From NCBI GenBank assembly GCA_031082155.1, contig JAVHLL010000027.1, forward strand, positions 5,734-39,301: a DNA stretch of 33,568 nucleotides, in the 5' to 3' direction. The DNA comes from Thermodesulfovibrionales bacterium. Lineage in GTDB: Bacteria; Nitrospirota; Thermodesulfovibrionia; Thermodesulfovibrionales; SM23-35. The translations under genes were made by a program, and so were the position numbers. The notes under the pieces are model-generated. The model was given only the letters and a program-made list of their open reading frames with translations. It did no database searches and had not been told where the DNA came from. Below are positions 5,849 to 13,532 of this stretch, piece by piece (position 1 is the first letter of the stretch; the number at the start of each line of letters is the position of its first letter).

Positions 5849-6182
5849 TTTTGTTCCTCTACTTCTTTCCTGTTATGAATAGACATCTTATGAAAAACCA
5901 TCCCGTTTAATTCTTCTTTGAAACCAATATCATTATAGCAAACTTCGATGGTGAGGGCTTTTCGTGAAGAAACCTGCGGCAGAGACCGCTGGGTGTAATA
6001 ATTATGAAGAATATTCAAAAACTTTGCAGGGAGGTGATTTCCTATGTCACGCCAAATCGTTATCAGGGGGCAAAGAGGTGTGTTGTTCAGAAAGAATGCA
6101 ATGGTATGTAAAAAGTAGTGGGGTGAGGATACGCCGGTCATTGTCATAGGGCAGAATCTCCTGAGAGCACCTCCTACAAAGG
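5849..6182. other. gene-poor gap with two doubtful small ORFs
   Basis: I see no firm gene here. On the plus strand an ATG at 6044 follows a strong GGGAGGTGA by seven bases, but its frame encodes only 24 residues (stop 6116-6118). On the minus strand an ATG at 6147 opens a 101-residue frame to 5842, overlapping the start of the cytochrome gene by 7 bp; its sequence resembles no family I know. The stretch probably holds the leader and promoter of the cytochrome gene. Confidence 0.4.
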
Positions 6183-11631: not shown

Positions 11632-12087
11632 TTACTTGTGCTCAAACAGGGTTTTGACCTCATTCATCAGTTCATTGATGTCTTTGAATTGCCGGTAGAC
11701 CGAGGCAAACCGTACATATGCGACTTTATCGAGTTCTCTCAGCGATGACATCACTTCTTCGCCGACCCAGGTGCTCGGAATTTCCTTCACATTCAGGCCG
11801 ATAAGTTTCTTTTCGATTGAGTCAGTGATATCTTCGAGTGTCTCCATGCCTATCGGTCTTTTTTCACAGGCTTTTTTCAGTCCGGTCACGACCTTGGACC
11901 GTTCATAGGGTTCCCGTCTCCCGTCTTTCTTGATGACCATGGGAATGATATCTTCGACCCGTTCGTATGAGGTAAAACGCTTCGCGCACTTGAGGCACTC
12001 ACGTCTCCGGCGTATCGCATTGCCTTCACGGCTGGTCCGTGAATCAATGACCTTGTCTTCGAGGTTTCCGCAGAAAGGACATTTCAT
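11632..12087 (-). CDS. nrdR: transcriptional regulator NrdR
   Basis: NrdR represses ribonucleotide reductase genes in response to nucleotide levels. It has 151 residues. A zinc ribbon uses C3, C6, C31 and C34 (MKCPFCG...ECLKC), followed by an ATP-cone domain (PMVIKKDGRREPYERSKVVTGLKKACEKRPI...) that senses dATP/ATP. The 3' end is VRFASVYRQFKDINELMNEV. It is last in the minus-strand housekeeping run, separated from glyA by a 206-bp spacer that carries a nested palindrome. Confidence 0.96.
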   Translation of the reverse strand: MKCPFCGNLEDKVIDSRTSREGNAIRRRRECLKCAKRFTSYERVEDIIPMVIKKDGRREPYERSKVVTGLKKACEKRPIGMETLEDITDSIEKKLIGLNVKEIPSTWVGEEVMSSLRELDKVAYVRFASVYRQFKDINELMNEVKTLFEHK

Positions 12088-12127
12088 GGATATAAGACTC
12101 CCGGTTTCTGGCGCAGTTTCATATTTC

Positions 12128-12212
12128 TGTCATTCTGGCTTGTCCAGAATCTTTCTTGCGATCCCATACGGCTACAAGAGTTTGGAAAGATTCCCGACAA
12201 GCGGGAATGACA
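12128..12212. repeat. nested palindromic repeat (REP-like) in the glyA-nrdR spacer
   Basis: Two 28-bp arms (12128-12155 and 12185-12212) are inverted copies of each other, identical at 24 of 28 positions. Each arm is itself a hairpin. The left is TTCTGG-cttgt-CCAGAA and the right is TTCCCG-acaag-CGGGAA. All four differences between the arms fall in the two stem pairs 9/19 and 10/18 and keep base pairing (T-A to C-G, G-C to C-G). The loops are CTTGT and its complement. A 29-bp spacer lies between. Such paired hairpins resemble REP/BIME elements. Confidence 0.8.
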
Positions 12213-12293
12213 CTGAAAACAACAATTCAATTTTCAGATGCCCAGTGGTCTCTGTCGCAAGGTGTTTAGGATTTCGTGCTTGAGATTTGTTTT

Positions 12294-13532
12294 TCAGTAT
12301 ATGGGAAATTTCACGCAGAGCGATTGGGCATTTTGCATCAGCCTCGCAATTGTCTCCGGGTCGTTGTTGTTCTCTATTATCGATGAAATCATATCGGCGA
12401 TTTTGGTCATCTCCGCGCTTCCCATGCCCCTTGTGGTAACGCAGGGAGTGCCGAGCCTGATTCCGCTTGTTATGGCCGGTGACCTCTCATCATAGGGAAT
12501 AACATTTTTATTCACGGTTATTCTCGCTTGTCCAAGGACGCTTTCCGCGTCTTTGCCCGTAATATTCTTATTCGTGAGGTCCACGAGCATCATATGGTTG
12601 TCAGTCCCGCCGGATATGATCTTAAAGCCTCTTCCCAGCAATTCTTCAGCGAGTTTCTTTGCGTTCTGTATGACTTTTGCCTGGTAATCCTTAAATCCCG
12701 GACTCAGGGCTTCCTTCAGAGCGACTGCTTTAGCCGCAATGACGTGGACGAGGGGACCACCTTGTATGCCCGGAAAAATCGTCTTGTCGATGGCTTTTGC
12801 GAATTCCGCTCTGCACATGATCATGCCGCCCCTCGGGCCTCTCAGGGTTTTGTGGGTAGTTGTCGTGACAAAATCAGCGTGAGGGAGCGGTGAAGGATGA
12901 AGCCCGGCGGCAACGAGTCCCGCAATATGGGCGATATCAGCCATGAGATAAGCGCCGGTTTCTCTCGCGATGTCAGCGAATACCTTGAAATCGATGCTCC
13001 GTGAATATGCGCTTGCCCCAACGAGAATCAATTTCGGTTTCTCTGCAAGGGCGAGGCGCCTCACTTCCTCATAATCTATATATCCTGAATCTCTGTTTAC
13101 TCCGTAAGAGACAACTTTATAGAAAACTCCGGAAAAGTTCACCGATGACCCGTGCGAGAGATGGCCTCCGTGGCTGAGACTCATGCTGAGTATGGTATCG
13201 CCGGGTTTCAGGACCGAAAAGAAAACTGCCATATTGGCCTGAGAGCCCGAATGCGGTTGAATATTCACATGTTCAGCGCCGAATAATTTTCTGGCGCGTT
13301 CGGTTGCGAGGTTCTCAACAACATCCGCGTATTCACACCCGCCGTAATAACGTTTGCCGGGATATCCCTCTGCGTATTTATTGGTGAACACAGAGCCCTG
13401 CACTTCGAGGACAGCCGGACTTGTGTAATTCTCGGATGCAATGAGGACTATATTCATCTGCTCCCGCTCGATCTCATCCTGTATCGCCTGGTATACTTCC
13501 GGGTCGGTATTCTTCAGATTCTCGAAGTTCAT
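12294..13532 (-). CDS. glyA: serine hydroxymethyltransferase
   Basis: This PLP enzyme converts serine and tetrahydrofolate to glycine and methylene-THF, the main source of one-carbon units. It has 412 residues. The PLP-binding lysine is K228 in [20 protein letters not shown] near residue 95-100 and DIAHIAGL near 199-206 are family signatures. The start ATG overlaps the rpiB stop by 4 bp (ATGA). It lies between rpiB and nrdR in the same direction, and its methylene-THF feeds the thymidylate route that also needs tmk upstream. Confidence 0.97.

Follow-up and report, generated by a model that had tools for sequence, protein, structure and literature searches.

The element analysed here is closest to the CGTC-tagged REPs, a superfamily described by Di Nocera et al. 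in 2013 together with its outward-tagged dimers and a preference for heterodimers (PMC3733652). In several CGTC families the heterodimer preference was reported and called unexplained, and SbcCD protection was suggested, while some other species have homodimers commonly or exclusively (PMC3733652); thus, palindrome fragility cannot be its universal cause. No transposase was known for CGTC REPs in the 2013 survey (PMC3733652), and no later paper naming one was found in the openly accessible literature. Two further systems have features in common with the present element. The GTAG-tagged REPINs/BIMEs of Escherichia and Pseudomonas, which go with a RAYT (REP-associated tyrosine transposase), are likewise non-autonomous; they too consist of short hairpins paired in inverted orientation, tags outward, and have many intergenic copies. 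Bacterial MITEs (Correia/NEMIS, IS200/IS605-derived) have the same unit size of ~130-200 bp, terminal hairpins or inverted repeats and an empty site in a relative.

The window, i.e. the whole analysed stretch of 33,568 nucleotides, contains the following features around the element, which sits in the codirectional glyA-nrdR gap ~40 bp before nrdR:

12128 to 12212, no strand assigned: CGTC-type REP heterodimer, 85 bp, head-to-head with tags outward, from sequence, fold and pair orientation
12128 to 12155, + strand: left REP arm, CTGG subtype, read directly as TGTC-ATTCTGG-CTTGT-CCAGAAT-CTTTC (tag, stem, loop, stem, inner box; 28 bp)
12156 to 12184, no strand assigned: spacer between the inner boxes, 29 nt, variable among copies
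12185 to 12212, - strand: right REP arm, CCCG subtype, read directly as GAAAG-ATTCCCG-ACAAG-CGGGAAT-GACA (inner box, stem, loop, stem, tag; 28 bp)
11632 to 12087, - strand: nrdR, the downstream neighbour
12294 to 13532, - strand: glyA (serine hydroxymethyltransferase), the upstream neighbour

Each arm is built from an unpaired TGTC tag, a 7-bp stem and a 5-nt loop, and the two are joined through the inner boxes CTTTC...GAAAG around the spacer, whose shortest state in other copies is approximately CYTTCTTGAAGAARG. The 85 nt of the + strand fold at -37.7 kcal/mol, compared with -18.5 ± 3.4 kcal/mol for shuffled sequences (z -5.7, 0/200), and the - strand, which is the sense strand of glyA and nrdR, folds at -40.0 kcal/mol (z -7.1); the single-arm hairpins reach -6.8 and -9.7 kcal/mol. 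Direct reading and folding thereby bear out the nested palindrome with two facing hairpin arms that a first-pass annotation had proposed. Its further statement, that the arms differ solely at two compensated base pairs, also holds over the 28 bp: the left arm has T12136/A12146 and G12137/C12145 where its partner has C-G at both pairs. The second of these, G versus C at 12137/12145, is not private to the nrdR-side copy but marks an old divide between subfamilies found throughout the genome; several other copies likewise have T-A at 12136/12146.

The element is a member of the published CGTC-tagged REP superfamily and not a GTAG/RAYT REP/BIME. It carries the unpaired CGTC-type tag (CGTC, or TGTC/CCTC) at one hairpin end, it belongs to a family of many copies arranged mainly as head-to-head dimers with the tags outside, and no CGTC-type REP lies within 1.5 kb of the 32 Y1 loci scanned. 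In common with the published CGTC-tagged REPs, especially CGTC-1 (dRS3 of Neisseria) and CGTC-2, it has the CGTC/TGTC end tag, AT at the stem base, a loop of 4-5 nt, outward-tag dimers that are frequently heterodimers, and a mostly intergenic placement with no adjacent transposase; dimers within larger palindromes, known from Halothiobacillus neapolitanus, likewise occur here (PMC3733652). The differences are a 7-bp stem with the loop CTTGT, where published stems have 8-9 bp, a 3' tail CYT in place of CCA, and a host clade in Nitrospirota, a phylum outside the five listed in that survey (PMC3733652). Since the stem is one bp short of the published families CGTC 1-4 (stem 8-9 bp, loop 4-5 nt), the element is filed under the tag-defined superfamily. 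Neither a GTAG tag at the hairpin base nor a RAYT gene flanked by the same CGTC-type REPs, the two marks of the REPIN systems, was found. Unlike bacterial MITEs, the core here is a conserved REP dimer common to miniature elements with different ends.

The reading we favour, at a probability of roughly 0.7, is that the CGTC-tagged REP heterodimer is a small non-autonomous repeat that is maintained and propagated as DNA, and that it is a recent passenger between glyA and nrdR. A transposase acting in trans would copy a larger unit into intergenic DNA, and the copying enzyme may be IS200/IS605-like for units with paired-hairpin ends and no clear target duplication, and of a TA type for those with CATAAGTA ends. 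The folded REP arms, as single-stranded hairpins, would be the selected object. Perfect arm-arm identity would in turn be selected against, because it gives an uninterrupted long palindrome, fragile or excised in DNA. In the glyA-nrdR mRNA the element would fold as a long hairpin, which may alter stability or read-through.

The family is abundant in the host genome of 2.65 Mb. The right arm (CCCG) has 29 exact copies and 80 with at most three mismatches, compared with 0 for the reversed control, and a degenerate arm pattern with at most three mismatches finds 121 arms genome-wide versus 3 in the control. Across patterns the totals are 111-121 arms versus 1-3, i.e. a family of ~110 copies, and the objection to which the earlier proposal was open, that the hairpin might have no other copies, thus fails. 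Close pairs have the TGTC tag outward in 38/38 cases (in 492 kb of stretches around arms), and the apparent single arms look mostly like pairs in which the second arm is worn or longer-looped. By simple ORF calls, which make both counts approximate, 52 of the 58 whole elements are intergenic, the DNA being 87% coding, and 38/58 lie between codirectional genes, roughly the expectation from gap number. T precedes GTC in 100 of 105 arms, while CGTC tag variants are present in four genomes (G048, G279, G081 and G032). Exact copies of the arm abound within the order and class, and hardly any are present in the remaining phylum sample.

The stems are preserved as pairs while their sequence changes. 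The 38 distinct arms comprise 266 stem cells, and Watson-Crick pairing holds in 248 of them; column shuffles, which ignore relatedness, give 215.6 ± 3.2 and never more than 226. Repeated two-sided change is seen at each of stem pairs 3, 5 and 6, and further stems, among them GCGG, CCTG, TCGG and CCGA, come from the relatives. These compensated changes, over the distinct arms as well as the relatives, uphold the proposal that hairpin structure is under selection, and we infer that the folded arms are selected as single-stranded hairpins.

Each arm keeps its own stem, yet across the family the two arms of a dimer are almost never identical. Among 28 non-redundant dimers of the host genome, a C-type stem is combined with a G-type stem in 23, compared with 12.5 ± 2.5 under random pairing, and C/C pairs number 0. 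The arm-arm differences affect 49 stem pairs and are fully compensated in 42 of these. Likewise, identical stems occur in 0/50 distinct dimers from seven relatives, where within-genome random pairing gives 13.4 ± 2.6 (minimum 5); the loci were mostly chosen via a C-type arm, a bias that would favour C/C pairs and not hide them. One identical-arm dimer type, with two copies (L101, L140), is the exception in the host genome. The compensated differences of the nrdR-side copy reflect this family-wide rule, which is unusually sharp and testable.

The unlike arms could also mark separate left and right ends recognized by a transposase, with no avoidance of palindromes. The lack of C/C dimers and the nearly universal unlike stems are consistent with such recognition, but a fixed left/right code predicts linkage between stem and inner box, whereas avoidance of an uninterrupted palindrome makes no such prediction. 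The inner boxes are themselves unlike (CCTTC versus CTTTC) in 18/28 host dimers and 28/50 dimers of relatives, and their type combines with stem type randomly in phase (20:18 overall; 9:7 in the host, 11:11 elsewhere). Moreover, the unlike stem pairs are varied, CCCG being found with CCGG, CTGG, GCGG, CCGA or TCGG, a variety not expected from a fixed code for two ends. We thus regard end recognition as unlikely; because the inner-box asymmetry assorts independently, the unlike arms seem to reflect that perfect palindromes are avoided, and not that the ends are fixed. A preference that had gone unexplained is in this way put in numbers as a rule, and the independence in phase of the two asymmetries supplies a test that discriminates between the two readings. 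A stronger form, which we put forward only tentatively and think doubtful, is that unlikeness is an active requirement: a hairpin-handling system of the clade, a nuclease or an HUH enzyme, would destroy homodimers or be unable to move them, so that the repeats would be kept heterozygous, the arms mutating only by compensated pairs while the partner is unlike.

As to the moving enzyme, the first-pass annotation had taken the element for a REP/BIME acted on by a RAYT. The repeated palindromic REP kind stands, whereas the RAYT/BIME assignment does not, given the tag TGTC/CGTC instead of GTAG and the lack of REPs near the Y1 loci scanned. Mobilization in which a Y1 enzyme recognizes the arms and moves the dimer would agree with the resemblance of outward-tagged dimers to REPINs and with the correlation, across 61 genomes, between REP copy number and the number of Y1_Tnp genes (rho 0.61 versus 0.37 for the DDE_Tnp_1 control, partial 0.56, kinship ignored), to which genome fragmentation may contribute. 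Against it, CGTC-type REPs lie within 1.5 kb of 0/32 Y1 loci (two host genes and 30 loci of relatives, Y1 class only), and the host genome has two Y1_Tnp genes while its congener has ten at equal REP number. In addition, G039 and G043 (completeness 99-100%) have 11 REP copies and no Y1 gene, and G048, with 84 copies, gives a single weak Y1 match. The suggested search for a RAYT gene returned a single RAYT-like gene, on L009, with unrelated TIR-like ends of its own, and no REP-flanked RAYT. RAYT mobilization of the dimer is therefore improbable in our judgement; Y1 action on the REPs in trans is possible. The proximity to nrdR and the highly stable sense-strand fold in a codirectional gap would also suit an RNA element acting in cis on the glyA-nrdR transcript (an attenuator, or a processing or stability hairpin) under local selection. 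However, the element is absent from the congener's nrdR-glyA gap and from every other nrdR locus examined, its ~110 copies lie beside unrelated genes, and an Rfam search of the element gave no family at gathering threshold and chance-level matches only. The absence at nrdR in all examined relatives argues for a recent insertion without a conserved role there. A local RNA function is thus very unlikely, cis-regulation of nrdR is not supported, and the association with nrdR appears, from these comparisons, to be accidental. What was proposed as an nrdR regulator is replaced by a repeat family with measurable behaviour, of which the present copy is an ordinary member in an accidental position.

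A passenger repeat spread at the DNA level is further indicated by larger units that carry the dimer. These comprise a 198-bp miniature element in six copies, ~99% identical, at unrelated sites and with the REP dimer at the centre, and the probable ends of a comparable unit in the window:

L124:18479-18676, L124:8701-8899, L135:8258-8455, L134:4704-4900, L121:9481-9678 and L123:7651-7850: copies of the 198-bp element, with ends TTTAATCAAAAGAATTCC...GGGGTTATTCATT
12103 to 12127, + strand: left flank of the window element, a degenerate TCTCT hairpin GGTTTCTGGCGCAG then TTTCATATTTC, common to L118:2148 and L133:16935; probable left end of a larger mobile unit, with a presumed end position
12245 to 12260, + strand: right-flank hairpin GTGGTCTCTGTCGCAA (GTGGTCTCTGTCGC hairpin), common to L118:2261 and L126:19303; the larger mobile unit probably ends here on the right

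At L127:2352-2484, a dimer-bearing insertion of 133 bp is matched by an empty site that the congener (G001) reads through, and a 92% copy is found elsewhere in G001. Three G001 insertions absent from G000 also reach well past the dimer, with diverged flanks in two. In combination, the 198-bp copies and the filled and empty sites show that the moving unit is larger than the REP dimer in every resolved case, and that the pair moves as the core of miniature elements of ~130-200 bp. CGTC REPs are hereby seen to travel as the central part of larger miniature elements, one such site being empty in the congener. In the window, the shared flanks and the congener gap suggest a larger unit at ~12100-12265; comparison with the congener gap gave no clean empty site at the glyA-nrdR locus. 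At least two types of unit end occur: some units finish in paired hairpins and show no clear target duplication, others in CATAAGTA inverted repeats, most often with TA before them. One terminal repeat common to all dimers was not found, CATAAGTA ends being present in only 13/89 arms, and no autonomous element had ends matching the larger units. The 198-bp and TCTCT-hairpin units, the latter degenerate in the window copy, suggest an IS200/IS605-type layout, with same-orientation hairpins near both ends and no clear target duplication, for which no cognate enzyme was found. The idea that REP dimers always sit at the tips of flanking palindromes was rejected: recognisable larger palindromes hold only some dimers, and the energy test of flank palindromes is weak, being non-significant at most of the five flank lengths tried and reaching p 0.009 at 40 nt only.

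Some minor observations concern related sequences. At 5974-5989 (- strand) of the window, a solo hairpin GCGGTCTCTGCCGC follows TAATTATTACACC without a REP and matches the terminal hairpins of the larger unit near nrdR; it is possibly a minimal or relic end of such a unit. At L109:4579, L121:2350 and L145:1-130, TACTAA...CATAAGTA ends surround a palindromic core of GGGGAGGG type in place of the REP dimer, as if the core inside these elements were exchangeable. An element with AACCTATCTCAAAAT inverted repeats at L133:7446-7696 encloses a REP dimer (L133:7583), and these repeats presumably resemble IS5/IS427-group ends. The Y1_Tnp gene at L010:1248-1980 is bordered by ACACCTCGGAGGTGT palindromes, with a similar ACACCTCCGAGGTGT near L010:3070. 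Finally, a second REP-like family, of GTCATTGCCCGACTTGATCGGGCAAT type, is present at L127:6334-6399 and at many G001 loci, coexisting with the first in the congener.
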